This document shows positions 17,590-61,114 of a stretch of DNA of 64,000 nt, piece after piece. The translations under genes were made by a program, and so were the position numbers. Every line of letters starts with the position of its first letter. Positions within the stretch are counted from its first letter, which is position 1. The notes beneath the pieces are model-generated. The model had not been told where the DNA came from. It saw only the letters and a list, made by a program, of their open reading frames with translations, and did not search any database. Origin of the DNA: a virus; IMG/VR virus record IMGVR_UViG_3300020474_001469, positions 1 through 64,000 of that record; one strand, 5' to 3'.

Positions 17590-18134
17590 AAGATATCACA
17601 CCAAAACACAACCAACACAAACAAAACAAAAACAAAATTTTTGTTAAAAAAAATAAAGTTTATAAAACTTTACGAACCGGTAAAGTATATGGACCTGATT
17701 GGTTAAAAGCCTATCGTAAAATATATGAACGTAATAAAAATTTGGTTAAAGTTTATGATGTTTTAGAAGAAGGTACAATGATATTAATGGAGAGGCTAGA
17801 CATAATATGTACTTTAGACCAACTTTTTAGTAAAGATTCTAAACATAAAAATTTAATAACAAAAGATTTAATATGTGAAATAATTAGTGTTATAAGTAGG
17901 TCTTGGGCAATAGATTTTGAATATTCTAAAACACTTACAGGCCATGAATATTTTATACACAATGACTTAAAATTATCTAATTTAGCTTTGACTAGCGACT
18001 ATCAGATTAAATTCATAGATCCTGACTCATACGGATTTACTTTTGAATTAGATGGTGGATACACGTTTATTCAAACACATATAGAACTAATGCATAGAAT
18101 ACAAAGGTATTATAATAATATAAAAGATGTATAA
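17586..18134 (+). CDS. Mini protein-kinase/aminoglycoside-phosphotransferase-like protein
   Basis: A 182-residue protein. Residues 125-132 (HNDLKLSN) match the catalytic loop HxDxxxxN of kinase-like phosphotransferases, and IDPDSYG (D145, D147) matches the metal-binding DFG-equivalent. Upstream, MILMERLD (65-72) fits the hinge. The N-lobe is very short and Lys-rich. At 182 residues it is well below the usual 250-300, so it is a minimal version. Possible substrates are a sugar, a small metabolite or a protein. It overlaps neighbours by 4 and 8 bases between the 2OG-like and radical SAM genes. Confidence 0.6.
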   Translation: MKDITPKHNQHKQNKNKIFVKKNKVYKTLRTGKVYGPDWLKAYRKIYERNKNLVKVYDVLEEGTMILMERLDIICTLDQLFSKDSKHKNLITKDLICEIISVISRSWAIDFEYSKTLTGHEYFIHNDLKLSNLALTSDYQIKFIDPDSYGFTFELDGGYTFIQTHIELMHRIQRYYNNIKDV

Positions 18135-19191
18135 TTACGCAGATATAAAAACAATTCATTTAGAGATTACGCAGAATTGTCAAGCGGCTTGTCCTATGTG
18201 CGATCGTAACATGAATGGTGAAGGAATAAATCCTCATATAAACTTAGATGAACTATCTCTAAAAGATTGTATGGATATCTTTCCTCCAAAATTTATTAGT
18301 CAACTTGATACTATGTATATGTGTGGAAATTTAGGAGATCCTATAATTGCAAAAGACACATTAGAAGTATTTGATTATTTTAGACAAAATAATTCTACAA
18401 TGTGGTTAAGCATGAATACAAACGCAGGAGCAAAAAATGTTGAATGGTGGAAAAAACTTGCTAAAACAATTGGAAAAAAGGGTGCCGTTATATTCTCTGT
18501 TGACGGTCTTAGTGACACTAATCATCTGTATAGGCAAAATGTTGTTTGGAACAATGTAGAACGCAACATGCGAGCATTTATTGAAGCTGGAGGTAGAGCT
18601 CGTTGGGATTTTTTAATTTTTGAACATAATCAACATCAAGTAGAAGAAGCACAAGACCTTGCAAACAAATGGGGTTGTGAAAAATTTGTTGCTAAAAAAA
18701 CAGGAAGGTTTATTACACAAGATTCACAAAAGAAAGAATCACACCAAGCAGTAAGTAAGAAAGGACAAAACACAGCTGAATTAAAAAAGCCTGATCCTAA
18801 GTACCAAAACAAGGCATTAAAAAAACAAGATATTATTATAAAAAAATATGGTAGTATGGATGCATACTATGATGTTGCTCCTATTAAACCTAAATGTGTT
18901 GACAAGAAGGAAATTTACGTAAGTGCAGAAGGGTTAGTACTTCCTTGTTGTTGGACAGCAGGTAGGATGTATAAATGGTGGCATAAAGATCCTTATGTAG
19001 AACAGATATGGGATTTCATAGATAAAGATAAAATTAACGCTAAGAAAGGCTTAGAACAAGTTTTCGAGACAGACATATTTACAAATATATCTAACAGTTG
19101 GAATAAATCCAGTTGTGCTGATGGAAAATTAAAAGTTTGTGCAATGAAATGCGGAGCAGAATTTGATCCATTTACTGAACAATTTAAATAA
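18127..19191 (+). CDS. Radical SAM protein, island group I
   Basis: A 354-residue radical SAM enzyme. The CxxxCxxC cluster motif is at C18/C22/C25 (ITQNCQAACPMC). Further signatures are YMCGNLGDP near residue 63 and IFSVDGLSDTNHLYRQN near 122. The C-terminal third has a Cys-rich SPASM-like region (CVDKKEIYVS...LPCCWTAG, then Cys pairs at the end), suggesting an auxiliary cluster and a peptide or large-molecule substrate. Closest relatives in the window are 19210, 21429 and the - strand 38664 gene. Its ATG overlaps the kinase gene by 8 bases with no strong ribosome-binding site, implying coupling. Confidence 0.85.
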   Translation: MYNYADIKTIHLEITQNCQAACPMCDRNMNGEGINPHINLDELSLKDCMDIFPPKFISQLDTMYMCGNLGDPIIAKDTLEVFDYFRQNNSTMWLSMNTNAGAKNVEWWKKLAKTIGKKGAVIFSVDGLSDTNHLYRQNVVWNNVERNMRAFIEAGGRARWDFLIFEHNQHQVEEAQDLANKWGCEKFVAKKTGRFITQDSQKKESHQAVSKKGQNTAELKKPDPKYQNKALKKQDIIIKKYGSMDAYYDVAPIKPKCVDKKEIYVSAEGLVLPCCWTAGRMYKWWHKDPYVEQIWDFIDKDKINAKKGLEQVFETDIFTNISNSWNKSSCADGKLKVCAMKCGAEFDPFTEQFK

Positions 19192-19209: not shown

Positions 19210-20265
19210 ATGAATATAGATAGTATACGTAAAATAGAGCTAGAGATTACAAGCGATTGTAATGCGGCATGTCCAGGTTGTGCTAGGACACAACATATAG
19301 ATAAACTTGAAATTAAGAGTTTCATGTTATCTGATCTGCTTAGATTATTTCCAGACACAAAACATATTAAAGATAAGCAGTTTAAGTTTTGTGGTGTACT
19401 AGGAGATCCTGCACTTAATAAAGATGCTGTTAGTATGACAGAACATCTTACAGATCATGGCGGGTATTGCCAATGGAGTACTAACGGCGCATATCAAACT
19501 TCTGATTGGTGGCATGCATTAGGCGAGATAAGTGCTAATACTAACCTTGTTGATGTAAATTTTTGTGTAGATGGACATAAGGAAACTAATCATATCTATA
19601 GGGTAAACACAAACTGGAAAGTATTAGAACGCAACATGCAAGCCTATAGTGACGCAGGTGGAAAAGCAACTTGGATTTTTATTGTTTTTGATCATAATGA
19701 ATTTGAATTGGAAACAGCTAGAGAACATGCAAATAAATTAGGATTTACGTTTGCAACTCGTACTGGAATGAGAAACAGTTATGACGACTGGGTTTCTCAA
19801 ATAGGAAAGAAAAATGAAAAACAAAAGAAAGTCATTACTACTACTGGAAAGAAAGAACATAGTAAAAAAGATCAGGTATTGGAACTAGACAAGTTTCTTG
19901 CTAACGAAAATAAAACAAATAAAGAAACAAAAGAAATACTTACAACAATAAAATGTAAACTTGTACACGAAGGTGAAATTTTTATTAGTTCTAAACAAGA
20001 AATGTGGCCTTGTTGTTTTTTATGGGATAGTGCATTTAAAAATAAAGAAAATATTTTAAATAAACTTAGTGAATACCAAACTGGTTGGAACAGTCTTAAA
20101 ACTAACAGCATTGATACTGTTTTACAACATCCATGGTTTGACAAAATATTAGGACAAAGCTGGAACCCTAATCACGAGAAACATCTACCAAGATGTATAA
20201 AAACATGTGCTTATCATAAAGCATATCACAATGAGATAAACATAGATGTCACAAGCAATTTGTAA
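19210..20265 (+). CDS. Radical SAM protein, island group I
   Basis: A 351-residue paralogue of the preceding gene: C17/C21/C24 in ITSDCNAACPGC, then FCGVLGDPALN, VDGHKETNHIYRVNTNW, and FIVFDHNEFE. C-terminal SPASM-like cysteines appear as MWPCCFLWD and RCIKTC. An 18-base gap separates it from the previous gene and holds the TACGTATATAA motif also seen at 10366. There is no clear Shine-Dalgarno. The gene overlaps the next one by 20 bases. Substrate unknown; a peptide or protein is plausible because of the SPASM-like tail. Confidence 0.85.
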   Translation: MNIDSIRKIELEITSDCNAACPGCARTQHIDKLEIKSFMLSDLLRLFPDTKHIKDKQFKFCGVLGDPALNKDAVSMTEHLTDHGGYCQWSTNGAYQTSDWWHALGEISANTNLVDVNFCVDGHKETNHIYRVNTNWKVLERNMQAYSDAGGKATWIFIVFDHNEFELETAREHANKLGFTFATRTGMRNSYDDWVSQIGKKNEKQKKVITTTGKKEHSKKDQVLELDKFLANENKTNKETKEILTTIKCKLVHEGEIFISSKQEMWPCCFLWDSAFKNKENILNKLSEYQTGWNSLKTNSIDTVLQHPWFDKILGQSWNPNHEKHLPRCIKTCAYHKAYHNEINIDVTSNL

Positions 20266-21442
20266 ATTACAGTCAACAGGAATAACAATTGATGGTGCTG
20301 AAGGTCGTGTGAAGCCATGTTGTCATTTTGATTCAAATAAAACTTTTAATATTCCTGACGTAAGTGACATAGAAAATTTTGAGCAAGTGTTAGATAGCAA
20401 ACTTTCAAAACGTATAAAAAAGTTAACAAAAAAAGGAATTTTATTTCAAAAGGAGACAGAGATAATACCTCAGTGTAATACTTGTTGGGATAGAGAGAGA
20501 AATAAATTACAATCACGTCGTAATTGGTATAACACAAAATTAACCGGAACTGGTGCTACGGTAGAAAATTTGCAAATAGCATTAGATTATACTTGTAATC
20601 TCATGTGTAGAATTTGTGCTCCTAAGCATAGTAGTAAATGGAATAGTGCCAAAGATGTAATAAAAAAATTAAGAACAATTTATCCCGAACATCCAGTTTA
20701 TGAAGCAAATCCTATAAAACAAAATTATTCTGAGAATATAAAAAGAGTCATACAAAATAGTGATTTAACTAATTTAAAAACAATAGAACTGATAGGCGGT
20801 GAACCTTTTTACAGTAAGCATTTTAATTGGTTTATAGAAACTATATGTGAGAAATGTAATCCAGAAAATATTGAATTTTCTACAATTACCAATGGGACTA
20901 TTATACCTCCTAAAGATATATTAGATAAATTACTTAGGTTTAAATGTGTAAACATAAAATTAAGTATTGACGGGTTGGGTCCTTTAGCTGAAAGCACGAG
21001 ACACGGAGTTGATTGGAATACAATAGATAAAAATATTCACACGTGGGCCAAATTGCATAACAAAGCTAATACAAGACAGATAGAAGTCAGAGCCAATCCT
21101 ACAGTAAGTATTCTTAATGTGAATAAATTACAAGAAATTATTGATTATTTTGATGACTGGAAAAATATTACAGTTGCTCCACATGGCTTGGAAGGACCTA
21201 GTTGGTTGTGTTTAGAGCAAATTCCTATTAAAATAAGAAAAAAATGGGTACCAACTTATCGGCATCCGTATCAAAATCATCAATTTAAAAACATTGTACT
21301 AAATGATAGAGTGGTGGAAAATAAATTACAACGGTTTTTAGAAAGCACATTAGTTTTAGATAATCATTACGGCATGGCTTTCAAAGATTGTAATCCAGAA
21401 ATGTACGAAACTATAGAAAGGCTTGTCAATGTGGAACAGTGA
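20246..21442 (+). CDS. Radical SAM protein with N-terminal twitch/Cys region, island group II
   Basis: A 398-residue protein. The N-terminal 80 residues hold an extra cysteine module: VKPCCHF (C25, C26) and QCNTC (C77, C80). The radical SAM motif follows at C117/C121/C124 (YTCNLMCRIC). ELIGGEPFY near residue 180 is the GGE motif that contacts SAM, and IKLSIDGLG near 238 is a later strand. This inverted order, with the auxiliary cysteines first, is shared with 23093, 24489, 25717 and 29397. Overlaps its neighbours by 20 and 14 bases. Substrate unknown. Confidence 0.85.
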   Translation: MSQAICKLQSTGITIDGAEGRVKPCCHFDSNKTFNIPDVSDIENFEQVLDSKLSKRIKKLTKKGILFQKETEIIPQCNTCWDRERNKLQSRRNWYNTKLTGTGATVENLQIALDYTCNLMCRICAPKHSSKWNSAKDVIKKLRTIYPEHPVYEANPIKQNYSENIKRVIQNSDLTNLKTIELIGGEPFYSKHFNWFIETICEKCNPENIEFSTITNGTIIPPKDILDKLLRFKCVNIKLSIDGLGPLAESTRHGVDWNTIDKNIHTWAKLHNKANTRQIEVRANPTVSILNVNKLQEIIDYFDDWKNITVAPHGLEGPSWLCLEQIPIKIRKKWVPTYRHPYQNHQFKNIVLNDRVVENKLQRFLESTLVLDNHYGMAFKDCNPEMYETIERLVNVEQ

Positions 21443-22370
21443 TACACTAGAATGGATTGACATTGAACTTACAAGTTTTTGTAATATAAGTTGTAAAGGT
21501 TGTTTTAGGGTAATATCTAAGGAAGCAGATAAAATTCTTAACAAAACATACCTTGATTTGAATGTAATTAAAGAAAAATTTAAAAAAGAAATGTTTCCTA
21601 ATATAAAAATTATTAATTTTTGTGGAAGTGTAGACGAACCTACAACTCATCCTCAGTTTTTTGAAATAATAAAGCACTTTGCAACATGGGATTGTCATAT
21701 CAATGTTGCAACAAATGGTAGTTTAAGAACTGCTAGTTGGTGGACTAAACTTGCAGAGATAATGCCTGAAAGCCATGTTGTAACTTGGGGCATAGATGGT
21801 AGTGATGAAACTAGCGAGTTATACAGACAAGGGTCTAATTTTAAAAAAGTACAGCAAAATTTTAGGGCGTTTATAGCCGCCGGAGGCAGAGCTCATTGGC
21901 AATTTATTGTATTTGAACACAACGAGCACCAATTAGAAATTGCAAAGAAAATGGCAGTAAATGAAGGCTTTAAGGAGTTCAAAACAATCATTAGTCATAG
22001 AAAAGACATAGGTGGAGTGAAACATAAAAAGCTCGAAGTAGAAGAATCTCCTACAATAAGTTGTAAGTATGGTAATCAAAAGCGTATATTTGTAAATCAT
22101 ATGGGAAATGTAATTCCTTGTTGTCACCTTAACAGCAAAATGTTAGAATTTTCAGTTAACGATAAACAAAAAGATAGATTTGAACAAATATTAGTTGAAA
22201 ACAACTATATGTCTGATATTAATCTTAAAAATGTTTCATTAGATGATGCTATACATGGTAAAGTTTGGACAGATATACAAAAAAGTTGGAATTCAAACAA
22301 TAGAATACCAAGATGTGAAAGTGTTTGCAAACAAAACATGCGAGATAAATTTATAAAAGAAAAGTTATAG
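21429..22370 (+). CDS. Radical SAM protein, island group I
   Basis: A 313-residue protein. The ATG at 21429 is chosen over an in-frame TTG at 21423, with AAGG at proper spacing. C18/C22/C25 lie in LTSFCNISCKGC. NFCGSVDEP, WGIDGSDETSELYRQGSNF, AGGRAHWQFIVFEHNEHQ and VIPCCHLNS align with the other group I enzymes. SPASM-like cysteines are at the end (CESVC). It runs convergently into the nitroreductase gene, whose stop lies within its last 6 bases. Confidence 0.85.
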   Translation: MWNSDTLEWIDIELTSFCNISCKGCFRVISKEADKILNKTYLDLNVIKEKFKKEMFPNIKIINFCGSVDEPTTHPQFFEIIKHFATWDCHINVATNGSLRTASWWTKLAEIMPESHVVTWGIDGSDETSELYRQGSNFKKVQQNFRAFIAAGGRAHWQFIVFEHNEHQLEIAKKMAVNEGFKEFKTIISHRKDIGGVKHKKLEVEESPTISCKYGNQKRIFVNHMGNVIPCCHLNSKMLEFSVNDKQKDRFEQILVENNYMSDINLKNVSLDDAIHGKVWTDIQKSWNSNNRIPRCESVCKQNMRDKFIKEKL

Positions 22371-23092: not shown

Positions 23093-24499
23093 ATGCATAG
23101 AAAACCTCCTTCAGAAACGTTTTGCTTGTTACCATGGGTGCATTTAAGCACTAGACCAGATGGAAGTATGCGAGTATGCTGTACTGCAAACGCAAGTTCA
23201 GTAGGAGCTACTAATGACCGAGAACACGGTGGGCAAGTGGGTATTTTAAAAACAGAAGATGGTAAACCAAACAATTTAAATGTAAGTGACTTCGAAACTG
23301 CTTGGAATAGCACATATATGAAAAATGTACGTAAGCAGATGCTTAACGGAGAAAAACCGCCTAGCTGTTTGAAATGTTATAAAGAAGAAGCGGCCGGCCA
23401 CAAAAGTAAGCGTATGTGGGAAACACATTACTGGGGACAGCGTGTTGATTTAGATAAAATACTAGCTGACACCAAAGAGGATGGGTCTGTTCCTCCACAA
23501 CTAGCATACATAGATTTACGTTTTGGTACCAAATGTCAGTTAGCTTGTGTTATGTGTTCTCCACATGACAGTTCTGGTTGGATTAAGGATTGGAAAGCTG
23601 TTTTTCCTGCTGTAGAAAATGCTAGTCTGAAAGAAACTATGCAATGGAAAGACAAGGGTAGTTTTAACGGAAGTAGCTATAACTGGCACAAACAAAATCC
23701 TACATTTTGGAAACAGTTTTATGAGCAGATGCCAAGTATGCAACAGATATATTTTGCAGGCGGCGAAAGTTTAATTATTGAGGAGCATTATGAAATACTT
23801 GAACATGCTATTAAAATGGGATATGCTAAAAATTTAGAGTTACGATATAATTCAAATGGTGTTGAATGGCGTGACGATTTGTTTGACCTTTGGAAGCATT
23901 TTAAATTAGTGCGTTTTCACTATAGTGTAGATAGCATAAAACAAATGAATGATTACATACGTTATCCTAGTGAGTGGAAACGGCAAGAAGAAGTTTTCCA
24001 TATTTTAGATAATGAAACAAGTGATAATGTTGAAGTAACTATAGCTTGTGCAGTACAGGCTTTAAACATTTATTACATTCCAGATTTTATAAAATGGAAA
24101 CTTGAAAAGAAATTTAGAAAAATAAACATGTGGCCGTTTGCCGCAGGAGCAATAAATTATCATTTTGTTTATCATCCGCCACATCTTAATGTAAAGATAT
24201 TACCTACATGGTTTAAAAAAGAATGTAGATTAAAGTATGAAAGATTTTATCCATGGTGGGAAGAAAATTGGGAGTTAGGTGTACCTAGTTGGCATAAAGG
24301 TAAAGTAACATATGAAGAATGGCGTAGTGCAGAATACGGCATTAAGAGACTAAAAGGTATGCTTAAATTTATGGAAAGTGAAGATTGGAGTAGGCGTCTA
24401 CCTGAGATGAAGGAATTTCTACAACTTTGTGATAAGCAAAGAGGCATAACTTTCGAAAAAACTTTTCCTGAAATGCGGGGCATATTTAATGATTTCTAA
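23093..24499 (+). CDS. Radical SAM protein, island group II (twitch-type)
   Basis: A 468-residue protein. It opens with the conserved module CLLPWVHLSTRPDGSMRVCC (C11, C29, C30) and SCLKC (C92, C95). The radical SAM cysteines are C148/C152/C155 (GTKCQLACVMC), followed by HDSSGW, and YFAGGESLII gives the GGE motif. The C-terminal 150 residues are Trp/Lys-rich and carry no further Cys cluster. It begins a new transcript from the late motif at 23055 and overlaps the next gene by 11 bases. Confidence 0.85.
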   Translation: MHRKPPSETFCLLPWVHLSTRPDGSMRVCCTANASSVGATNDREHGGQVGILKTEDGKPNNLNVSDFETAWNSTYMKNVRKQMLNGEKPPSCLKCYKEEAAGHKSKRMWETHYWGQRVDLDKILADTKEDGSVPPQLAYIDLRFGTKCQLACVMCSPHDSSGWIKDWKAVFPAVENASLKETMQWKDKGSFNGSSYNWHKQNPTFWKQFYEQMPSMQQIYFAGGESLIIEEHYEILEHAIKMGYAKNLELRYNSNGVEWRDDLFDLWKHFKLVRFHYSVDSIKQMNDYIRYPSEWKRQEEVFHILDNETSDNVEVTIACAVQALNIYYIPDFIKWKLEKKFRKINMWPFAAGAINYHFVYHPPHLNVKILPTWFKKECRLKYERFYPWWEENWELGVPSWHKGKVTYEEWRSAEYGIKRLKGMLKFMESEDWSRRLPEMKEFLQLCDKQRGITFEKTFPEMRGIFNDF

Positions 24500-25727
24500 T
24501 ACAATGTGCCCTTATCCTTACATGCATCAGTTAATTAGTTCCTCAGGAACTGTTACACCTTGCTGTCATGTTTATGAACCTCCTGGTACTCCTTGGAAAA
24601 AAGTAAATTTTAGAGATGGCATAACAACTGACTTACATAAGTTAATGCGTAAGCAAATGGAAAGTGGTAAATGGCCTGGTATTTGTGTAAAATGCAAAGA
24701 TCAAGAACTTAGGGGAGATATTAGTCATAGACAACTTGCCCTTGAACAATTTGGGAATACACACGATATTAAAATAAAATCACTTGACGTGGCATATACT
24801 AATAAATGTAATTTAGCATGTAGAATGTGTAAACCTTCAGATAGTAGTTTGCTAGACGAACTTTATATAAAAGCAAAAGAAGATGGCATAAATGAGATTC
24901 CTAGTTGGATTAAGATTTTTGGACATTCACCTACTTATGAATACGAAGCCATAGAAAAGGTTAAGTACACGAAGAAACTTATTGCAGAAGGATTAACTAA
25001 TTTAAAAGTAACTGGCGGAGAACCTACAGCGTGTAAACATTTTATGGGACTAGTTGAATGGATATTACAAAAGGGCCACGCAAAGAATATAGCTATACAA
25101 ATTACAACAAATGGTACAAAACTTAATAAAGTGTTAATTAAAAAATTACTACAGTTTAAACAAGTAAAGTTAGTATTAAGTATAGACGGCACTGGAAATG
25201 TATACAACTATGTTAGACATCACGGTTCTTGGGATAAAACATATAGTAACTTACAGGAATTATCAAAGCATCCTAGTATAACAGTAAGTGTAGCATGTAT
25301 TGCTTCTTTTTTTAACACTACTAATATAATAGATTTAATATACCAATGTGCAGAACTTGGCATTGCAGTTCATGTTGATCAAGATCTTAAACCAAGAAAT
25401 TCAGAAATAACACCGTACAATCACGATAGTAATATTTCAAGTATCCTATTAGACCAAGCGACCCAATTAAGAAAAGATTTTAAAAGTTGGAAATCGTATA
25501 GTGGTGAAGACACAAAAATGCCGGTTGGATTTAATAAAATTATTTGGTATGCAAATAAGTCAGCAAAAACACTTGAAAATATTGCTAATACTCCACGTCC
25601 TAAAGGACATATTAGAGATCGATTACAACAGACAATAAAAATACAAGACAAGTTATATAATACCAACTTTGAAGATTTTCTGCAACCTGAACAAATAAGA
25701 TACCTAGGTGGTAACTATGCCCAGTGA
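24489..25727 (+). CDS. Radical SAM protein, island group II (twitch-type)
   Basis: A 412-residue protein with the same plan as the gene before it: CPYPYMHQLISSSGTVTPCC (C7, C25, C26), GICVKCKDQE (C66, C69), then the cluster motif C107/C111/C114 (TNKCNLACRMC). VTGGEPTACKHF supplies the GGE motif and LSIDGTGNVYNYVRH is a conserved later strand. It overlaps the neighbouring genes by 11 bases on each side. Substrate unknown. Confidence 0.85.
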   Translation: MISNTMCPYPYMHQLISSSGTVTPCCHVYEPPGTPWKKVNFRDGITTDLHKLMRKQMESGKWPGICVKCKDQELRGDISHRQLALEQFGNTHDIKIKSLDVAYTNKCNLACRMCKPSDSSLLDELYIKAKEDGINEIPSWIKIFGHSPTYEYEAIEKVKYTKKLIAEGLTNLKVTGGEPTACKHFMGLVEWILQKGHAKNIAIQITTNGTKLNKVLIKKLLQFKQVKLVLSIDGTGNVYNYVRHHGSWDKTYSNLQELSKHPSITVSVACIASFFNTTNIIDLIYQCAELGIAVHVDQDLKPRNSEITPYNHDSNISSILLDQATQLRKDFKSWKSYSGEDTKMPVGFNKIIWYANKSAKTLENIANTPRPKGHIRDRLQQTIKIQDKLYNTNFEDFLQPEQIRYLGGNYAQ

Positions 25728-28239
25728 AGTTAAATTACCTTGTTACTATGCCCACGGAGGGTTGAATTATAAAAACGGATTTGCAACAGTATGTCCTATT
25801 AGCGGAGCTAGGTTAAAAGAAATAGATGAAGAACTTCCTAGTAAATTTTGGAATAATAATTATTTTACAGAATACAGAAAATCTTTAGATAGAGGCGTCT
25901 ATCCTCCTGATTGTAACCTATGTAAAACTAACGAAGAAAATAATATAAAAAGTATGAGACAGGATTACCCTGCAGATTTATCTAATTATGATCCAGCTAC
26001 TGGAAAAGTAAACTTTGCAGGATTAAAACATGTAGAACTAAGATTTAGTAATGCTTGTAATATGGCTTGCTTACATTGTAGTGATGTTTATAGTAGCCAA
26101 TGGGGTAGCAGGTTAAAAGATTATGTACCAGATGAAATAGATAAGGAATATAACTTAGAACAATTACTTAAAACACAACACCGAGTATGGTGGCCGGAAA
26201 GAGATGCTAACTGGAAAGTAGGAAATAAAGATCCGGGACCTGCAAAGTTTTTTGATGTAAACATAAGTTTAAAGACAGCCCATGTACTAGAAATTGTAGA
26301 AGATTTAATTAAAAATTTTCCTAATATAGAAAAGATAGATTTTGCAGGCGGAGAAGTATTATATCAAAAACAATTTTTTCCATGTTTACATAAATTAGCT
26401 GAACACCCTAATGCTAAAAATATATTAATATTTTTCCATAGTAATTTTAATGCTGACTTTGATGTTCAAGATCTAAGTGATGCTTTGGAACCTTTTGGCA
26501 AAAGTCAAATTCAGATTAGTGTTGATGCAGGAACAAATATATATCCTTACTTTAGAGACGGCAGTTGGAAAAAGTTAAAAGAAAATTTAAAAAACTTTAA
26601 CCAAGTAAATAACTTTACTGAGATAAATGCAGTATGTACTACTAGTGCATACCAGATAATGGATATAGAAAATGTAATAGAATCTTTACTTGAATTAAAC
26701 TTAAATGCTATAAATTGTAGTATTGTTTATACCCCAAGATACATAAATCCAGCTATAATGATGCGACATTTTTCTAAGGAAGTAATTGAAGATTTAGAAT
26801 CTACTAGAGAAATAATTAGACATATTGAATCAGTAAGATATTTAGATGATCCGAAAAAACACAGATCGTGGAACGGACAGATATTTAGTGACATTAGATC
26901 TGCACTTCAGGGTATAGACAATATAGAAGAATATGTTACTAATTACAAACATACAGTAGAAAAAGACTGGGAAGGGTTTTTACACTACAGTAAAAAAATG
27001 GACAAATTGTGGAAAAAAGATTTTAATAAACATTTTATAAAATACAAAAGAAAGGATGGTAAAATGAATAGAATAAACATAGTAAAAGCTCACGTACTTA
27101 CATATGAGTCAATTCCCTACAAGGAATCAATAAAAGTTCCTGTCAGTAACAATCATGTAGACGCTATCCTTGAGAAACAGAAATTACTTAAAAATGTCCC
27201 CCAATTAAGAAAGCGATCCGACGAAGTTGATGTTTGGAAAGAAAAATTACAAAAATTAAACGATGAAAGAAATTATTCTGAACATGTTAAGGATTTAGGA
27301 CCTGAAGAAAAGAAAGCATTTGCAGATGCAAAAAATGATAGTGAGATGTATGAGATTATTAGAACACATCATCAAGATGAAATACGCAAACGTCTATTAG
27401 ATCGACAAAACCTAAGCAAAGTAAAACTTGTAACAGAAGAAATAAGAAAAATTATTTTTTTAAGAGAAGAAGAAAATATTAGAAACTTAATTAGGCGTGG
27501 AATAAAAACATTTGATCAAGACGGAGTTGATATACCTTTGAATCCGTGTTGGAATAAAATAGCAATTATGCTAAGTGGTGGAGCAGATAGTGCTAGTCTT
27601 GCTTACATACTCTGTGCAGAAATTGAAAAAAATAAACATGAATGTACTGTAGATATTTTAAGTTCACATAGATGTTGGGAAACCAGACCATGGCAGGCAG
27701 ATATTAGCTTAAGAGTTTTTAACTGGCTAAAAGATAGATTTCCGAATATAATTGGAGAACGTTTTACAACCTTTGTTGCACCACAACTAGAACACGGTGT
27801 ATCTGGAGAGATGTTTGATGGCAGATCTGGAGAACAGGTTCTAATGTCAGAATTTAACAACTATATGGCTCATGCTAATGGATACAATGCTGTGTATAAT
27901 GCAACAACTGCTAACCTACCAGGATATACTGGGCAAAGAATGCTTAATAGAGATGAAGGTGCTGAAAAGTTTGTAGGCATAGCAAAAGAAGGAGGTTGGT
28001 GGAATTTACAACCATATTCACATGTTCCAAAAGATTGGGTAATCAAGCAGTACAAAGATTTAAATATACTGGACTTCTTAAATTTAACACGAAGCTGTGA
28101 AGGAGATTCACAAAAAGAACGTACCCATTTTGGAATGGATGCTACGTGGTACAAGTGTACTGGAGAAATACCAGACGAGTGTGGTATTTGTTATTGGTGC
28201 AAAGAAAGAAAATGGGCTATGGAAAAGAATGAGCTTTGA
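25717..28239 (+). CDS. Radical SAM-QueC-like PP-loop fusion protein
   Basis: An 840-residue fusion. The ATG at 25717 (after AGGTGG) is preferred to a GTG nine bases earlier. Residues 1-430 are a group II radical SAM unit: C9, C26, C66, C69, then C114/C118/C121 (SNACNMACLHC), with DFAGGEVLYQ as the GGE equivalent. A long charged linker follows. Residues about 600-840 are a QueC-like ATP pyrophosphatase: SGGADS (620-625) is the PP-loop, and the end carries RSC (C794) and ECGICYWCKER (C822, C825, C828), matching the zinc-binding cysteines of QueC. QueC converts 7-carboxy-7-deazaguanine to preQ0 via adenylation and amide formation. Here it could serve DNA modification or adenylate a different carboxylate handled by the fused radical SAM domain. 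Overlaps both neighbours by 11 bases. Confidence 0.8.
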   Translation: MPSEVKLPCYYAHGGLNYKNGFATVCPISGARLKEIDEELPSKFWNNNYFTEYRKSLDRGVYPPDCNLCKTNEENNIKSMRQDYPADLSNYDPATGKVNFAGLKHVELRFSNACNMACLHCSDVYSSQWGSRLKDYVPDEIDKEYNLEQLLKTQHRVWWPERDANWKVGNKDPGPAKFFDVNISLKTAHVLEIVEDLIKNFPNIEKIDFAGGEVLYQKQFFPCLHKLAEHPNAKNILIFFHSNFNADFDVQDLSDALEPFGKSQIQISVDAGTNIYPYFRDGSWKKLKENLKNFNQVNNFTEINAVCTTSAYQIMDIENVIESLLELNLNAINCSIVYTPRYINPAIMMRHFSKEVIEDLESTREIIRHIESVRYLDDPKKHRSWNGQIFSDIRSALQGIDNIEEYVTNYKHTVEKDWEGFLHYSKKMDKLWKKDFNKHFIKYKRKDGKMNRINIVKAHVLTYESIPYKESIKVPVSNNHVDAILEKQKLLKNVPQLRKRSDEVDVWKEKLQKLNDERNYSEHVKDLGPEEKKAFADAKNDSEMYEIIRTHHQDEIRKRLLDRQNLSKVKLVTEEIRKIIFLREEENIRNLIRRGIKTFDQDGVDIPLNPCWNKIAIMLSGGADSASLAYILCAEIEKNKHECTVDILSSHRCWETRPWQADISLRVFNWLKDRFPNIIGERFTTFVAPQLEHGVSGEMFDGRSGEQVLMSEFNNYMAHANGYNAVYNATTANLPGYTGQRMLNRDEGAEKFVGIAKEGGWWNLQPYSHVPKDWVIKQYKDLNILDFLNLTRSCEGDSQKERTHFGMDATWYKCTGEIPDECGICYWCKERKWAMEKNEL

Positions 28240-29404
28240 TACAATTGACTTATTAACTGGAAAAGTATTTCAAGTAACCTGGGATACTGGTAGAAGATGT
28301 AACTATGATTGTAGTTATTGTCCTGTACATCGACATGACAATTTTAGTAAACATGCAACATTAGATGAACTTAAAGCAAACACAGATTTTTTATTCGAGT
28401 ATATAGATACATACATGCAATACAGAGATTATAAGTATGCTAGTATCAGTTTTACAGGCGGAGAACCTACTGTAAACCCCAATTTTATTCCTTTTATACA
28501 ATACTTAAAAAATGAATACAATACAAGATATGCAAATAAATGGAATGCAAATTTTGCATTGACAAGTAATGGAGCCATGGGAGAAAAAATGGCTCAACGT
28601 GTAATGGAAAACATGAGACATATAACAGTAAGTTATCATGCAGAAAGCGATATTAAATTAAAGCAACAGGTTAGAGATAGAATATTACAGTTTCATACAG
28701 ACGGACCGGCTCACAAAATGACTTTAAGTATAAATGTAATGTTTCACGCAGAGCATTTTGATGAATGTAAAGACCTTTGTGAGTTTTTAGATGAGCATGG
28801 AGTAAAATATGTACCTAGAATAATAGGCGAGGAAGCGGGCAGTAGGAATAACTTTGCTCATCAATATACAGATCAACAACTAGATTACATAAAAAATTAT
28901 TGGAAATATAAAAACGAAAAACTTAATAACACCAGAGAAGAAGCTAACATTTTAAGTGCCGCCGGAGAAAAAACTACAGAAAAGAAAAAATTAGGCTTTA
29001 CAGTAGGTAGACCATGTTGTGGTAGCAGAGAAATGTGTTTAAGTATGAAAGGCAAAAGTAGAAAAGCAACCTTTGTAGATATGCGTGAATTTAAAGGTTG
29101 GAATTGTAGCGTAAACTGGTTTTTCTTACATTTAGAACAACAAACAGATAGCATTTATCATCATCAAACATGCCAAGCTAGGTTTGATAAAACTAGAGGA
29201 CCTATTGGAAAATTAAGTGAAGGCAAAAAATTAATTGCAGAACTAAAAAGTAATTTAAAAAATAATACAATGCCGACTGTAGTATGTCCTAAGCATACCT
29301 GTGGATGTGGGTTGTGTGCGCCTAAATCAAAATATAAAGAAAATTATATGGAAGTAATGAAAAATCACATAGATACTTCTGTATTAGGAACCATAAGTGG
29401 ATAA
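28229..29404 (+). CDS. Radical SAM protein, island group III
   Basis: A 391-residue protein. The start ATG at 28229 (MSFDTID) overlaps the previous stop by 11 bases; upstream in-frame sequence belongs to the other gene. C24/C28/C31 lie in GRRCNYDCSYC, followed by ISFTGGEPTVNP with the GGEP motif. The C-terminus has CCGSREMC-like and CPKHTCGCGLC cysteine sets that could hold an additional cluster. Its best match in the window is 30491. It ends 8 bases into the next gene. Confidence 0.85.
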   Translation: MSFDTIDLLTGKVFQVTWDTGRRCNYDCSYCPVHRHDNFSKHATLDELKANTDFLFEYIDTYMQYRDYKYASISFTGGEPTVNPNFIPFIQYLKNEYNTRYANKWNANFALTSNGAMGEKMAQRVMENMRHITVSYHAESDIKLKQQVRDRILQFHTDGPAHKMTLSINVMFHAEHFDECKDLCEFLDEHGVKYVPRIIGEEAGSRNNFAHQYTDQQLDYIKNYWKYKNEKLNNTREEANILSAAGEKTTEKKKLGFTVGRPCCGSREMCLSMKGKSRKATFVDMREFKGWNCSVNWFFLHLEQQTDSIYHHQTCQARFDKTRGPIGKLSEGKKLIAELKSNLKNNTMPTVVCPKHTCGCGLCAPKSKYKENYMEVMKNHIDTSVLGTISG

Positions 29405-30488
29405 GAAATATGCATGTCCTCTACCGTTCAATCATATGGCGGTAAGACCTGATGGTCAAATTTTTCCATGCTGTATTTTTAGATGGGACGATGTTCCTGA
29501 AGATTTAAATATCTATCATAAAGACCCTTTTAACCATAATTACATGAAAAAACTTAGACAAGACATGTTAGAAGATAAACCTATTTCAGGTTGTTCGCAT
29601 TGTTATGATAGGGAAAAAAGTAATGCTAGTAGTTTTAGATTAGAAGCATGGAACGAACAGGAAAAGTATGGTACGACAAGTTTGTCTACAGGACAAGAAC
29701 CTCAATTACGGTATGTTGACCTAAGTATTAGTAACACTTGTAACAACAAGTGTAGAATGTGTGTTCCTGCTTTAAGCACTCATTGGTATAGTGATGCAAA
29801 AAAATTAGGACTACAAATTCCAAAAGGAATAGTAAGAAATCCTTTTATAGAAAACACAGATTTTTCAACATTAAGTTATATAAAATTATTAGGCGGAGAG
29901 CCTTTAATGGAGCAAAATGTATTAATAAAGATTTTAAAACAATGTGATTTAGAAAATCTAACAGTACATTTAATTACAAATGCAACTTTAAGACCTAACG
30001 AAGAATTGCTTAATTTATTTGAAAAATGTAAACAAGTAAAGGTTACATTAAGCATAGATGCATATGGAGATTTAAATGACTTTTTACGTAAAGGAAGTTA
30101 CTGGAAAACTACATTTAAAAATCTGCTGTGGTTTTTAGATATGTTTCCAAAGTCCTCTGTTCATAGTGTTCTAAGCATTTACAATATAAACAAAGCAAAA
30201 GAATTTGTTTATTTTTGCAATGAATTAAAAAAAGGCTGTCAAAAGTATTTTCTTATAGATGGACCCGATTATATGATGCCAAGACATTTACCAGAACAAG
30301 TTAAACCAAAAATACTAGAAAGTTTACAAGGTATAGAAAGTTTTGAAGTATATGAAAAAGAATTACATAAAACGGGAGATTTTAATATATTTGTTAAACA
30401 AGACAAAGTAATGAATAATTTGCGTAATGAACATTGGAAAAATGCAAATCCGGACTTGCATAATCTTGTAAAAGAGTATATAATATAA
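29397..30488 (+). CDS. Radical SAM protein, island group II (twitch-type)
   Basis: A 363-residue protein. The GTG start at 29397 is kept because it preserves the family module CPLPFNHMAVRPDGQIFPCC (C7, C25, C26); AGGA lies upstream. SGCSHC (C66, C69) and the cluster motif C115/C119/C122 (SNTCNNKCRMC) follow, with LLGGEPLMEQ as the GGE motif. It is the most compact group II member. Overlaps the previous gene by 8 bases and lies 2 bases before the next. Confidence 0.85.
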   Translation: MDKKYACPLPFNHMAVRPDGQIFPCCIFRWDDVPEDLNIYHKDPFNHNYMKKLRQDMLEDKPISGCSHCYDREKSNASSFRLEAWNEQEKYGTTSLSTGQEPQLRYVDLSISNTCNNKCRMCVPALSTHWYSDAKKLGLQIPKGIVRNPFIENTDFSTLSYIKLLGGEPLMEQNVLIKILKQCDLENLTVHLITNATLRPNEELLNLFEKCKQVKVTLSIDAYGDLNDFLRKGSYWKTTFKNLLWFLDMFPKSSVHSVLSIYNINKAKEFVYFCNELKKGCQKYFLIDGPDYMMPRHLPEQVKPKILESLQGIESFEVYEKELHKTGDFNIFVKQDKVMNNLRNEHWKNANPDLHNLVKEYII

Positions 30489-30490
30489 GT

Positions 30491-31603
30491 ATGACCGAAG
30501 ATTTAAAATGGAGTAATTATGACTTTTCTAAAATACCATTTGACGACATTGTTAAGGTCGGCCAAAGGACGCTTCTATACAGAGATCTGTTTACTGTTAG
30601 TTGGCTTCTTGGTCGCTTTTGCAACTATCGTTGCAGTTATTGTTGGCCATACGCCAGATCAGATAAAAAAGATCACAGGCCCACACAGCTCGCTTATCAT
30701 ACAATCGATGAGATAAAGAGGCAAGCACGTGACAACAATTTTAATTCTTTTCATTTTAGTCTTTCTGGTGGCGAGCCTACGTTTCACCCAGGATACCTTG
30801 ACATCCTTAAATATTTGGCTGATGATGTCGACAATACTAATTATACTAGTATACACATGACAAGTAATTGTTCGAGACCAATGAAGTGGTTTCGTACGTA
30901 TGTAGATTATGCAAAGCCGTTTCATCGTGCCAGCATAACTGCAAGCCTACATGTTGAACATGTAAATACAAAAGATAAGATGCAAGACTTTGCAGACAAG
31001 TTAAATTTATGTCAGGAGTACGATGTTCAAGTTACAATTAATCAGGTTATGGTTCCAGAACATTTTGAAAGAGATTGGGAAAATGCTCTTTTCTTTCACG
31101 AACAAGGAATCAACGTTACCCTTAAACCTCAGTCGGATCCGACTGCGTCCAGAGTGGTTGATGGATACAAAGACGAAGATCTCAAAAGACTCTACAACGG
31201 AATGCCGCAAAGAGCCTTCACCGAAACGAAACGTATTTGGAATAACCGTCCACGACCACAGTTTCAAGTTCCCGCAGGAATAACAGGAAAAAATGATGCT
31301 AGTGTGCCTTGGCATATGCAGGTTGAATTAGAAGATAGCAAAGGTAAAAAATGGTATATGGACCAAGCAGAACGGTTTAATGCCTTTAATTTTAACAATT
31401 TTGAAGGATGGGCATGTAACGCCGGTTACAGCGGAATAATAATACGGGAGCCTGACGGTTCGGTAAAAAGGAGTTATTCGTGCCATGATGTGCCCCTTGG
31501 TAACATCGAAACAGGTTTCGAGCTATTTAAGGCACCTAAACCTTGTATTACAAAAAGTTGCGTAAGTTCCGCCGATTCTAAAATACCAAAAAACAAGTAC
31601 TAA
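30491..31603 (+). CDS. Radical SAM protein, island group III, with unlike base composition
   Basis: A 370-residue protein. C44/C48/C51 lie in LGRFCNYRCSYC, then SLSGGEPTFHPGYL. It shares the layout of 28229 but has a shorter Cys-bearing tail (YSCHDVPLGN, KPCITKSC). By hand count, 30541-30720 and 31141-31200 are about 40-47% G+C, against about 20% in a line of the gene just before it (30361-30420), and codons such as CTC, CGC and GCC appear that are rare nearby. This suggests later arrival than its neighbours. The last third returns to the local composition. Substrate unknown. Confidence 0.85.
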   Translation: MTEDLKWSNYDFSKIPFDDIVKVGQRTLLYRDLFTVSWLLGRFCNYRCSYCWPYARSDKKDHRPTQLAYHTIDEIKRQARDNNFNSFHFSLSGGEPTFHPGYLDILKYLADDVDNTNYTSIHMTSNCSRPMKWFRTYVDYAKPFHRASITASLHVEHVNTKDKMQDFADKLNLCQEYDVQVTINQVMVPEHFERDWENALFFHEQGINVTLKPQSDPTASRVVDGYKDEDLKRLYNGMPQRAFTETKRIWNNRPRPQFQVPAGITGKNDASVPWHMQVELEDSKGKKWYMDQAERFNAFNFNNFEGWACNAGYSGIIIREPDGSVKRSYSCHDVPLGNIETGFELFKAPKPCITKSCVSSADSKIPKNKY

Positions 31604-31619: not shown

Positions 31620-32378
31620 ATGAGTCTAGTATGTGAAGAAATATTATCCTTAAGCACAGCAGTACGTACAAACGTGTTAGAAGATGTTAACCGTGCTGTA
31701 GAGGGCTTAAAATGCGATTTAGACGGTGTTTTAAAGTACTCTACTAATATAGTTGAGTGGTTAAAACCGGTTGTAGATCTGTCTAATTTCCATGTATATC
31801 CTATGAATGGAATAACGCAAGGACTAGATTGGTGGTACGATAAAGAGTCTAGATGCGTGGTTATGAAGCCAGGAGATTACCAATGGATATCTCCAAAAGG
31901 TGGATATGGAAGGGTATGTTACATCAGTGTACCGAGTGCTATTGATGGTAACTTTGTTGATATTCCAAAAGACAATCCTACAGTGGTTGACTTAGCTTAT
32001 GTTGGAAGTACAAAAGTTAAAAAAATAAATATTCCAGAAAATACACAATTTGCATTTTATAGTTTTAGTAAACCGTTTGGCATTAGGAATGTAAGAACAG
32101 GATGGATTTTTACAAAGAAACCCGATCTTAGATTAGAAGCACTTACCCATAGTGCAAAGTACTACAATTATCATGCTCATAATATTGCAGAAACTATAAT
32201 TAATAATTTTGATATTGATTATGTTTGGAACCAATTAAAAGAAAAACAAAAAGTCGTATGTGAAAAATATAGCTTTACACCAAGTGATAGTGTTTGGTTA
32301 GCATCTACACAAGATCCAGCTTACGATAAATTTAAAAGAGGGGAACGTGCCAGGTTATGTCTCGCACCGTGTTATTAG
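31620..32378 (+). CDS. Mini PLP-dependent aminotransferase-like protein
   Basis: A 252-residue protein. YPMNGITQGLDWW (60-72) resembles the T.G..e.l segment of fold-type-I aminotransferases. TVVDLAYVGS (121-130) matches the strand with Asp (D124) and Tyr that hold the cofactor. FSKPFGIRNVRTGW (149-162) matches SK.fg..g.R.G, making K151 the expected PLP lysine. The usual length is 350-400 residues; this lacks much of the N-terminal arm and C-terminal domain, so it may be a reduced enzyme or need a partner. It overlaps the B12-type radical SAM gene by 22 bases. Confidence 0.6.
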   Translation: MSLVCEEILSLSTAVRTNVLEDVNRAVEGLKCDLDGVLKYSTNIVEWLKPVVDLSNFHVYPMNGITQGLDWWYDKESRCVVMKPGDYQWISPKGGYGRVCYISVPSAIDGNFVDIPKDNPTVVDLAYVGSTKVKKINIPENTQFAFYSFSKPFGIRNVRTGWIFTKKPDLRLEALTHSAKYYNYHAHNIAETIINNFDIDYVWNQLKEKQKVVCEKYSFTPSDSVWLASTQDPAYDKFKRGERARLCLAPCY

Positions 32379-33877
32379 GAACTATCTCAAGTGTATATCA
32401 CGACTGGGTACCATACCCGGTTGGTTGCCTAATCTCTCACTGTCTAAAAAATCCTAAAATAAAAAAAGAATACAAATTTCTTGAACCTTTATATAAGAAT
32501 AAATGGGATAATCAAGAAACCCACGATAAATTAAAACAAGCAGATATATTAGGTTTAACCTGTTATGTTTGGAATCAAAATGCAAATGATGAAATAGCTC
32601 AAATATTTAAACAGTACAATCCTGCAGGTATTGTTGTGTACGGAGGACCTAACGTACCAGAAGAAAATTTACAAGAATTTAAACGTAACTATGTAGATCA
32701 TTACATGACAGGCCCTGGAGAATTACAATGGGAAAAATTATTAGATCCTGCTAGTGATAGCGAATATGCAATACCAACTCCTTACACTGACGGAATATTT
32801 GATAATATTTTAAAACACGAAGATGATATTGCTGTTGCATTTGAAACAAACAGAGGATGTCCATATCACTGTGCATTTTGTGATTGGGGAGGAGTCAGTC
32901 GTAGTAAAATTACAAAACTTAAAGATGCCGCAGTAAAAGAAACTATAGAACACGTATTAAGTTTTGACAAAGTAAAACGTTTAGAAATACTAGATGCAAA
33001 CTATGGTATATTTCCAAGAGATGTGGATTTTGTACAGCATATAGTCGATAATAAAAAACGTGATGATATGTTATTAACCTTTGCAGGATTTGCTAAAAAT
33101 GGATCGCCATACCTTCCTGATATAATGAATTTAACAATGGATAATTTTAACGACAAGTTAAGGAATGTAAAAATAAGTTTGCAGACATTAACGCCTGATG
33201 TGTTAGATACAATACAAAGAAAAAATATTTCTACAGATAAATTACTCCGTATCATGGATCAGTTGAGAGATATAAAAGTAAATTCAGAACTTATAATAGG
33301 CTTGCCTGGAGAAACAGCAAGTAGTTGGGCTGATACTTTGTTCAAACATCCTGAGTTAGGAATAGATTTTGCTAGAGCATACCCGTTATACGTATTGCCT
33401 AATACGCCTATGGCTACACAAGATTATAGAACTAAACACAAAATAAAAACTAAAAAAATTAATTTGCCTAATAAAGAAACGTTTGAAATGATATATGAGT
33501 GTAGTAGTTATGATTTAGATGAAATTACACAAATATATTTAAACTGGTGGTACTTTAACACTTTTTATAATTTTGGTATAGATAAAACTATTACAAAAGA
33601 TACTATGAATGACTTTTTTGCAAATTTAAAAGATACGCCTTTTATGAGTTGTTGTGTAGAAGAAGTAAGAAATATATTACACAGAATATTCAAACCAGAG
33701 GACGAAATGTTGTTAGAAGGATATGATTATAACTTTTTACATAAACAGCTAGGCAGAGGAAAAGAATTGTTATACATGAAGAAACACAACAAGACAGTAC
33801 AACAAGAACTAGGAATAAAGTTTGACATAAAAAATGATGATAAAGAACTAGGGAGCGCCTTTGCGTATATAAAATGA
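32357..33877 (+). CDS. Radical SAM protein with B12-binding-like N-terminal domain
   Basis: A 506-residue protein. Residues 1-125 have the strand pattern of a cobalamin-binding Rossmann domain (ADILGLTCYVWN, GIVVYGGPNVPE, MTGPGE), as in BchE/HpnP-type enzymes; the classical DxHxxG cobalamin-ligand motif is not apparent. The cluster motif is C168/C172/C175 (NRGCPYHCAFC), followed by DWGG. Later ISLQTLTPDVLDTIQRKN and SELIIGLPGETASSW are typical of this superfamily. Family members often methylate unactivated carbons or rearrange rings. Overlaps its neighbours by 22 and 4 bases. Confidence 0.8.
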   Translation: MSRTVLLGTISSVYHDWVPYPVGCLISHCLKNPKIKKEYKFLEPLYKNKWDNQETHDKLKQADILGLTCYVWNQNANDEIAQIFKQYNPAGIVVYGGPNVPEENLQEFKRNYVDHYMTGPGELQWEKLLDPASDSEYAIPTPYTDGIFDNILKHEDDIAVAFETNRGCPYHCAFCDWGGVSRSKITKLKDAAVKETIEHVLSFDKVKRLEILDANYGIFPRDVDFVQHIVDNKKRDDMLLTFAGFAKNGSPYLPDIMNLTMDNFNDKLRNVKISLQTLTPDVLDTIQRKNISTDKLLRIMDQLRDIKVNSELIIGLPGETASSWADTLFKHPELGIDFARAYPLYVLPNTPMATQDYRTKHKIKTKKINLPNKETFEMIYECSSYDLDEITQIYLNWWYFNTFYNFGIDKTITKDTMNDFFANLKDTPFMSCCVEEVRNILHRIFKPEDEMLLEGYDYNFLHKQLGRGKELLYMKKHNKTVQQELGIKFDIKNDDKELGSAFAYIK

Positions 33878-38130: not shown

Positions 38131-38677
38131 ACTCGCCCTTCCAGCGTAAAAATGGTTCTTCACTTGCAAAAGGCCAACCACTAATATTTAATCTATCACC
38201 AGTACAGTTATCTACTTCATGTAGTATGTCTACATGCATACATACAAGCCTATTTCGTTTAGGTAATATGCTTATACCATCGACACGTAAAGCACCATCA
38301 GTTTCGTCTGTCAGGTATAACATGTATGTCCAATCACCGTATATTTTATGATCCTCTATATGTGGAGCACAGAAACTTCTTTCTGGTTCAAACTTTTTTG
38401 CAAACAGTTGCAGGGGATTAAGTTTTTCTGTTGGAAGATCTAAACCTATTACATTGCCTATTTTTTTCAACAAAGGATAACGCAAGTCACTTCGCCTAAG
38501 TTCTGTGCGTAGCATATACCAATCATAGTCTGTTTTTTCTTCCATTACATGATTACAGTCTTCATTGTTTAATGAAATAGTTTCAGCTCCGGTAACTAAC
38601 TTTGTAAGATCTGTAATTAATTCTTCTTCTAAAAAATTATCACAAATTATTAATGTATCAAACTCAGTTCTTAGCAT
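38117..38677 (-). CDS. 2OG-Fe(II) oxygenase, prolyl-4-hydroxylase-like, HxE variant
   Basis: A 186-residue protein. KKFEPERSFCAPHIEDH (94-110) precedes WTYMLYLTDETDGALRV, the usual P4H core. CMHVDILHEVDN gives the distal His (H153) and DRLNISGW the Arg (R162). The proximal ligand pair reads H106-I-E108 rather than HxD, as in a few family members such as clavaminate synthase. The function is probably hydroxylation of an unknown substrate. It overlaps the upstream radical SAM gene by 14 bases. Confidence 0.75.
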   Translation of the reverse strand: MLRTEFDTLIICDNFLEEELITDLTKLVTGAETISLNNEDCNHVMEEKTDYDWYMLRTELRRSDLRYPLLKKIGNVIGLDLPTEKLNPLQLFAKKFEPERSFCAPHIEDHKIYGDWTYMLYLTDETDGALRVDGISILPKRNRLVCMHVDILHEVDNCTGDRLNISGWPFASEEPFLRWKGESNAQ

Positions 38678-39737: not shown

Positions 39738-40384
39738 TATTTTATAAGTGCAAATTTCTTGCAGTCGTCCCAACTTTCAGTATCGTAAGGTATATGGGCA
39801 ACTACTCGCCAATGATCAGTAGGATTCACAACCTGATGAAACTGATGTCTATTAAAGATAGCAGGCTTTTCGTGTAAACAATATTCTACAGCAACTTCTT
39901 CGTCTGGTATTTCTGATAATTCTGGCCTGCCTTTAATATAATTATAGCTGTCTATATATCTATTATCTTCTGGATCGTGCCAATGTGCATACTTTGTTAT
40001 GCTTTGTTCATCAGTGCCTATTAATGGTAACATTAAGGCACCTGCATGCCAATCAGGTGAAGGAGCAGGATGTCTGTGCGGGACAAATATAGGAGTTATT
40101 TCTGGACATGTAACAAAAAACATAACATCAGATACAAGATGAAACTTAGGTATTAATCTTTGCCATTCGTTGTATTCAGGTAAATGCATAATTTGTCCAA
40201 TACGAACTTTTGTCCACATTCTGGCTCTATAAAATGCATCATTGCGTTCAAAATGTTTTTTAAAGTAATCGGTTCTTGGTTGGTTAGTGACTAAGCTAGG
40301 ACATATATTAAATATATCTCTACACATCCTTTGCATTAACGTATAATCTTCACTCCATTCAAGTTCTATTATAAAATCATCCAT
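39737..40384 (-). CDS. Putative 2OG-Fe(II) oxygenase/cupin-like protein
   Basis: A 215-residue protein. VPHRHPAPSPDWHAGALMLP near residues 112-131 and PAIFNRHQFHQVVN near 177 form a beta-helix-like pattern with His at both expected iron positions, then HWRVVAHIP with an Arg. The first pair is not a standard HxD. It overlaps the sulfotransferase-like gene upstream by 16 bases. Function unknown. Confidence 0.45.
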   Translation of the reverse strand: MDDFIIELEWSEDYTLMQRMCRDIFNICPSLVTNQPRTDYFKKHFERNDAFYRARMWTKVRIGQIMHLPEYNEWQRLIPKFHLVSDVMFFVTCPEITPIFVPHRHPAPSPDWHAGALMLPLIGTDEQSITKYAHWHDPEDNRYIDSYNYIKGRPELSEIPDEEVAVEYCLHEKPAIFNRHQFHQVVNPTDHWRVVAHIPYDTESWDDCKKFALIK

Positions 40385-55599: not shown

Positions 55600-55642
55600 T
55601 TTCATTCTCCGAGTTATAGACGAGGATGTCTATTATGTTATT

Positions 55643-60935: not shown

Positions 60936-61114
60936 TTTCTTTTTATATGATCCTTTAGTGCTAACTTTTGTTTCTTTAATTTTACTAGATGTTCTTTAGT
61001 TTCCCAACTTCTATCGTAATTTCTTTCTGCTTCTACTTGCTCTACTTTCTTATGAAAGTAATCAAACATATTTTGCATCTTTTTAGCCTTCTTGGTGGCT
61101 CTTCCAGTACTCAT
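60932..61114 (-). CDS. Small basic coiled-coil protein
   Basis: A 60-residue Lys-rich protein: TGRATKKAKKMQNMFDYFHK, then VEQVEAERNYDR, and a helical end (KLKKQKLALKDHIKRK). It is likely helical and basic. No family assigned. It shares the ATGA-type junction with DpdA (1 base) and the DoxX gene (4 bases). Confidence 0.5.
   Translation of the reverse strand: MSTGRATKKAKKMQNMFDYFHKKVEQVEAERNYDRSWETKEHLVKLKKQKLALKDHIKRK

Follow-up and report, generated by a model that had tools for sequence, protein, structure and literature searches.

Fusion of a twitch-type radical SAM enzyme with a QueC-like PP-loop domain in uncultured viruses

The stretch of DNA analysed here, called the window below, comprises 64,000 nucleotides (positions 1 to 64,000) of IMGVR_UViG_3300020474_001469, an 85,654-base uncultured virus record in IMG/VR, and our subject is one gene within it, which encodes a twitch-type radical S-adenosylmethionine (SAM) enzyme and a QueC-like PP-loop domain in a single chain. 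The protein is best regarded as a branch of the QueC-like PP-loop proteins with a twitch radical SAM enzyme attached. The frame is uninterrupted over 840 codons, and the protein begins with a twitch-type radical SAM half, which a helical linker connects to the PP-loop domain at the C-terminus. A sequence-only reading of the window had placed the fused frame, the radical SAM motif, the SGGADS segment and four cysteines, and all of these were recovered where it had put them. The features are as follows, conservation being counted over 44 dereplicated relatives for the QueC-like domain and over 16 aligned rows for the radical SAM half.

25717..28239, plus strand: fused twitch radical SAM and QueC-like PP-loop gene, 840 residues (single open frame; same fusion in other loci; purifying selection throughout)
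25717..27051, plus strand: radical SAM half of the N_Twi type, residues 1-445 (NF033640, PF04055, fold matches)
25741..25923, plus strand: N-terminal cysteines C9, C26, C66 and C69, candidate ligands of an auxiliary iron-sulphur (Fe-S) cluster (conservation in the 16 rows)
26056..26079, plus strand: CNMACLHC, the radical SAM [4Fe-4S] motif CX3CX2C, with C114, C118 and C121 (16/16)
27052..27486, plus strand: helical linker, residues 446-590 (helices in the full-length model, of low confidence at 456-504; alignment)
27487..28236, plus strand: QueC-like PP-loop ATP-pyrophosphatase domain, residues 591-840 (model, fold comparison, hhalign)
27574..27591, plus strand: SGGADS PP-loop, residues 620-625 (S, G, G, D and S 44/44; A623 43/44)
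28096..28098, plus strand: C794, first zinc-site cysteine, in TRSCEG (44/44)
28180..28200, plus strand: CGICYWC, with the remaining zinc-site cysteines C822, C825 and C828 (44/44)

Taken alone, the PP-loop half reaches no Pfam cut-off (PF06508 gives 13.4 bits against a gathering cut-off of 22), so that its motifs had to be read directly. It is matched by PHROG 1550, annotated as QueC-like (E 1e-6), and a profile of the family aligns, through the zinc region, with that of nine QueC proteins (hhalign: 93% probability, E 3e-7). A model of the domain predicted from the 44 sequences (predicted local distance difference test, pLDDT, 88.6; predicted template modelling score, pTM, 0.89) has as its best fold match the QueC of Bacillus subtilis (3bl5; Z 15.1 over 182 residues, which fall within positions 30-258 of a model of 258), followed by Erwinia QueC (Z 14.1), MesJ/TilS (13.6), Cap9 (13.1), QatC (12.9), NcsA (12.6) and LarE (12.1), with TtuA also among the matches. 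Together with the invariant SGG-DS residues and cysteines, these results bear out the earlier proposal that a QueC-type domain is fused with a radical SAM enzyme of the twitch type. No other PP-loop family gives a better match than QueC, although the Z margins are small, and an asparagine-synthase-like, TilS or NcsA identity was rejected, since the fold is nearer to QueC and the four cysteines match QueC-type proteins. The QueC zinc pattern, also claimed earlier, stands as regards the number and order of the cysteines (44/44) but not their spacing, which is C-x27-C between the first and second cysteine in the window and about 20 residues in many relatives, compared with C-x8-C in QueC; the site itself is judged from conservation and predicted fold rather than from coordinates. 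Outside these four positions the family has no conserved cysteine, which argues against sulphur transfer.

The N-terminal half is a member of the twitch domain-containing radical SAM proteins described by NF033640, scoring 203 bits against a curated cut-off of 170, and it also passes PF04055 (38.5 bits against 29.5); what the window protein adds to other NF033640 proteins is the C-terminal QueC-like domain. Among the N-terminal cysteines, C9, C66 and C69 are kept in 16/16 rows and C26 in 10/16, most of the other rows having a cysteine at neighbouring columns, and an auxiliary Fe-S cluster is the likely reason for this conservation. The closest folds are those of CteB (Z 12.0), BlsE (11.7), anSME (11.6) and SkfB (11.5), whose substrates are peptides, proteins or a small molecule derived from a nucleoside.

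The same fusion, which we sought in other viral contigs, recurs at the loci L024, L026, L027, L028, L029 and L030. In comparison with L024, the ratio of non-synonymous to synonymous substitution rates (dN/dS) is 0.13 for the radical SAM half, 0.19 for the linker (43% identity) and 0.15 for the PP-loop domain, and all three parts are thus under purifying selection. Because the fusion is recurrent and selection extends over all of its parts, a read-through artefact was ruled out. In split relatives the linker has its counterpart in an N-terminal extension of the QueC-like protein. Outside the fused proteins, the N-terminal half is closest to separate radical SAM genes of L036, L035 and L034 (59, 55 and 52% identity), which overlap their QueC-like gene. 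A tree of the QueC-like domain separates the fused forms into two supported groups with split forms between them, and relatives of both fused clades keep the same two genes separate but overlapping; either two fusions took place, therefore, or one fusion was followed by later splits.

By alignment, the family departs from QueC at its substrate residues. Y35, R99, Y131 and Y189 were found essential in Escherichia coli QueC in a 2026 mutant study (PMC13329287), and structures of Cap9 and QueC show the 7-deazaguanine base being recognized by Tyr and Asp of the YPD segment (PMC13279940). The window family, which is 14-18% identical to QueC, has in common with it the fold, SGGxDS, the P-x5-K segment, K165 and the four C-terminal cysteines of the putative zinc site, and lacks its YxQxHxxE, VPxRN, YPDC and Y189. 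The column aligned with R99 (in VPxRN) holds D, N or E in 44/44 and never R, while that aligned with Y131 (in YPDC, which the window protein does not have) is mostly G or R, its exact register being uncertain. At the position of Y189 all 44 relatives have E (E795 in the window), a replacement that is firm because the position lies next to the first zinc cysteine. Cap9 and QueC bind 7-carboxy-7-deazaguanine (CDG) with a Tyr/Asp pair that is likewise not kept, the aligned columns being G/R and variable, with the same uncertainty of register. Nor is YxQxHxxE kept after strand 2, where the window has SHRCWETRPW and the family conserves RxWxTRPW; this region lies outside the profile alignment and was therefore read by eye. 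The replacement of substrate residues alongside retained ATP and zinc motifs indicates, as far as the alignment goes, a pocket that is rebuilt around a conserved ATP site and a putative zinc site. The genomic setting differs as well: canonical QueC is found beside QueD and QueE, whereas the window family is fused to, or lies beside, radical SAM proteins.

Relatives of the QueC-like domain occur in at least 375 IMG/VR viral contigs, mostly as stand-alone proteins of about 240-320 residues. None was found in two scans of the contigs of 84,980 species genomes, which were tied to short peptide patterns and may miss divergent relatives, or by tblastn with four family members against 50,697 phage records, which may also miss divergent ones. 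In the searches made here the family is seen only in uncultured viral contigs, and a cellular origin is not supported, within the reach of the two pattern-based scans. The partner-type radical SAM protein matches Vibrio phages at about 23% identity. A targeted search of the open-licence literature returned no earlier description of the family. In three of the phages (those of L034, L027 and L026, the last two carrying the fused gene) we noted a second, shorter QueC-like paralog of 219-225 residues (L105, L106 and L107) with TRSCEA and CGKCWWC-type motifs.

Linkage was scored in the best 80 of 375 loci, which gave 43 loci after dereplication, 42 of them scorable. An N_Twi radical SAM gene lies within two genes upstream or three downstream of the QueC-like gene, or is fused to it, in 41 of the 42, and a second radical SAM gene is also present in 40; clusters c0 and c1 both stand beside the QueC-like gene in 40/42. 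Of the near neighbours 56% are radical SAM genes, compared with 24% of the far ones at the same loci (Fisher p 1e-14), and a reverse search that started from the radical SAM half met a QueC-like gene, adjacent or fused, in 9/11 loci. In most loci there is an overlap between the QueC-like gene and the next gene downstream. Near the gene set, no small open reading frame is common to more than 4 loci, and a system for ribosomally synthesized and post-translationally modified peptides with a discrete precursor was rejected, although an unusual or distant precursor would escape such a comparison. Beta-hydroxylase-like proteins of cluster c4 (profile E 4e-19 to 7v4f) were seen divergent beside the QueC-like gene in many loci (among others L039 and, for example, L076, 2765-3436, minus strand).

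In the window the fused gene belongs to an island with at least 10 further radical SAM genes, of which those nearest to it overlap its ends:

23093..24499, plus strand: N_Twi radical SAM gene (NF033640, 423 bits)
24489..25727, plus strand: N_Twi radical SAM gene upstream of the fused gene, whose start it overlaps (NF033640, 220 bits)
28229..29404, plus strand: partner c1, encoding the second radical SAM protein; its start and the 3' end of the fused gene overlap (in-frame ATG overlapping the fused-gene stop, by eye)
29397..30488, plus strand: N_Twi radical SAM gene (NF033640, 229 bits)
30491..31603, plus strand: c1-type radical SAM gene (cluster 1)
31620..32378, plus strand: pyridoxal phosphate (PLP) fold-type I aminotransferase-like protein, cluster c9 (motifs and profile matches)
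32357-33877, plus strand: radical SAM protein of the B12 type, similar to C-methyltransferases of the KedN5 family (NF033712, E 2e-45, below cut-off)
18127-19191, 19210-20265, 20246-21442 and 21423-22370, plus strand, and 38664-39773, minus strand: five further radical SAM-type genes

The c9 protein has invariant GxT, D, SxSK and RxG motifs and matches profiles of 1-aminocyclopropane-1-carboxylate synthase and histidinol-phosphate aminotransferase (E 9e-4 to 2e-3); its gene follows the set in the window, whereas at many other loci it immediately precedes the QueC-like gene. The island adjoins tail-fibre-like genes, recognized by eye, and also contains oxygenase-like and glycosyltransferase-like genes. 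The virus is probably a bacteriophage, and the carriers of the gene set are uncultured viruses resembling pelagimyophages, in which the set sits in a variable island next to the tail fibre. The host recognition cluster of pelagimyophages is such a tail-fibre-adjacent island, with glycosyltransferases and radical SAM cassettes, and in the excerpts of its published description at hand a QueC-like partner or fusion of those cassettes is not mentioned (PMC7029224).

On balance, and with some reserve, we favour a bifunctional enzyme whose QueC-like domain would use ATP to activate a non-canonical carboxylate, leading to an amide or a ligation product, and would be coupled to radical chemistry. The C-terminal domain would adenylate the carboxylate through its PP-loop, yielding adenosine monophosphate and pyrophosphate, the activated acyl group would pass to an amine to form an amide or conjugate, and the N-terminal twitch radical SAM half would act on the same substrate or on the product. 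Fold and motifs suggest such an activation followed by amine attack, the course taken by QueC and Cap9 and proposed for QatC. The coupling of carboxylate adenylation and amide formation to radical chemistry, put forward in the sequence-only reading, is thereby kept as a prediction from the fold. That both halves share a substrate is suggested because they are joined in one chain and strictly linked when separate, and the conserved set, which comprises the QueC-like protein, the N_Twi enzyme, a second radical SAM protein and often a PLP aminotransferase-like protein, points to an undescribed biosynthetic or modification step. Several points weigh on the other side: co-occurrence of genes does not prove a common substrate; TilS, NcsA and LarE lie only 1.5-3 Z below QueC, and the PP-loop fold is also used in thiolation and in lysidine and NAD synthesis; the register at Y131 is loose; and the full-length model of the fused protein has a pTM of 0.54 with no confident placement of the domains, for which reason we rejected it as a source for their arrangement.

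A more familiar role would be that of a preQ0 synthase of the phage, the canonical function of QueC on CDG for DNA or tRNA modification, with a radical SAM enzyme attached. Genes that bear on this lie in the same window, one of them resembling tRNA-guanine transglycosylase (TGT):

53769-54698, minus strand: QueE-like protein (PHROG 2076, E 6e-55)
54910-55605, minus strand: FolE (PF01227)
61114-62574, minus strand: large TGT/DpdA-like protein (motif reading by eye; no Pfam, PHROG, NCBIfam or PDB match)

Relatives of the TGT-like protein are very common in viral contigs, with at least 599 matches. In keeping with a preQ0 synthase, the record encodes FolE and a QueE-like protein and has no match to a QueC or QueD model at the level of Pfam detection; long contigs with the new family often have FolE, QueE-like and TGT-like genes, three of them also QueD, and none a QueC above the Pfam cut-off; and K165 and the four cysteines of QueC are retained. 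Absence of FolE, QueD or QueC is nevertheless weak evidence, because the contigs are fragments, and divergent QueC proteins may escape PF06508, as a clearly QueC-like protein of L108 (1480-2097, minus strand; SGGLDS, CGRCDTC), a contig that also has the new family, scored below its cut-off. Against this role stand the replaced residues at R99, Y131 and Y189, essential by mutation (PMC13329287), and the position of the fused gene among radical SAM genes, about 25 kb from QueE and FolE, with the QueE-like gene on the opposite strand. Moreover, the QueC-like gene does not track FolE, QueE or TGT-like genes: contig G005 (158 kb) has the new family and no FolE, QueE-like or TGT-like match, while G022 (182 kb) and G026 (165 kb) have a TGT-like gene and neither the new family nor a QueC above cut-off. 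Five other TGT-like contigs carry a divergent branch of the family, which lies among radical SAM genes in the four that were fetched. We hold a preQ0 synthase to be quite unlikely, and CDG is probably not the substrate; of the two roles that the sequence-only reading had left side by side, the QueC of the pathway is not upheld, and an enzyme acting on another carboxylate fits better.

Another reading is a Cap9-like, perhaps QatC-like, activity, in which a carboxylate (CDG or other) would be joined to a viral or host protein at its N-terminus and the radical SAM half would prepare or edit the product. Cap9, a minimal QueC fold of type IV cyclic oligonucleotide-based antiphage signalling systems, and QatC of qatABCD, in which the CDG pocket is also remodelled around a QueC core, rank high among the fold matches (Z 13.1 and 12.9); the SCE of the family with CxxCxxC after it, and a loop that in many members has about 20 residues, recall the zinc regions of Cap9 and QatC, the latter with its long loop inside the zinc motif (PMC13329287); and the radical SAM half resembles the protein- or peptide-modifying CteB, anSME, SkfB and ChlB. 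The Tyr/Asp pair by which Cap9 recognizes CDG is, however, missing at the aligned positions, a conserved acceptor protein starting with glycine was not identified, and a PADLOC scan of the 44 family members gave weak QueC matches and no QatC-type match. The context is also different, being one of viral radical SAM genes, with no cGAS/DncV-like nucleotidyltransferase recognized among the classed neighbours (radical SAM genes), for which no directed search was made, and in the fused form a radical SAM enzyme takes the place of the extensions of QatC. We see this activity as unlikely, though as the most probable of the rivals. The amidation of a sugar or other cell-surface building block, as by the WbpG-type N-sugar amidotransferases of the same Pfam family, within an island that alters the host surface, could draw on the glycosyltransferase-, epimerase-, GNAT- and SGNH-like genes recognized by eye in the window or its relatives, on the tail-fibre-adjacent position, where islands of this kind in pelagimyophages have glycosyltransferases and radical SAM cassettes (PMC7029224), and on the PLP aminotransferase-like neighbour. 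It appears rather improbable to us, as the WbpG cluster has a different cysteine motif, CxxC-x6-CxC (PMC13329287), and no amidotransferase partner was recognized, though no systematic search for one was made. A sulphur-transfer enzyme of the TtuA, NcsA or LarE type would agree with the fold matches to these proteins. Such enzymes need a catalytic cysteine or a [4Fe-4S] cluster at other positions, and with no conserved cysteine beyond the four QueC-type zinc positions we consider thiolation very improbable indeed. Extending the carboxylate-activating reading, one could speculate, with low probability, that virus-specific QueC-like ligases, physically coupled with radical SAM enzymes, form a novel type of conjugate in the infected cell by using ATP to attach a radical-made or radical-altered carboxylate to proteins, peptides or surface molecules, as a viral counterpart of Cap9-type protein modification in bacterial immunity.

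QueC folds fused to a partner enzyme have been met in phages before, namely in the Gat-QueC proteins of, for example, phage 9g, but there the partner is a glutamine amidotransferase and the product is archaeosine in DNA (PMC6884629), whereas in the window it is a radical SAM enzyme. Protein modification has recently been recognized as a role of QueC-fold enzymes in bacterial immunity, and the family described here is, in these searches, a viral-only branch of that fold. The fusion names the partner of the QueC-like domain and provides a single construct in which to seek the substrate, which could help to reveal the role of the many radical SAM genes in islands of aquatic phages, and it cautions against annotating such genes as queC in surveys of viral auxiliary metabolism. 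Elsewhere in the window we noted a fatty acid desaturase (PF00487; 43712-44287, minus strand) and a hot-dog thioesterase (PF03061; 13915-14292, plus strand).

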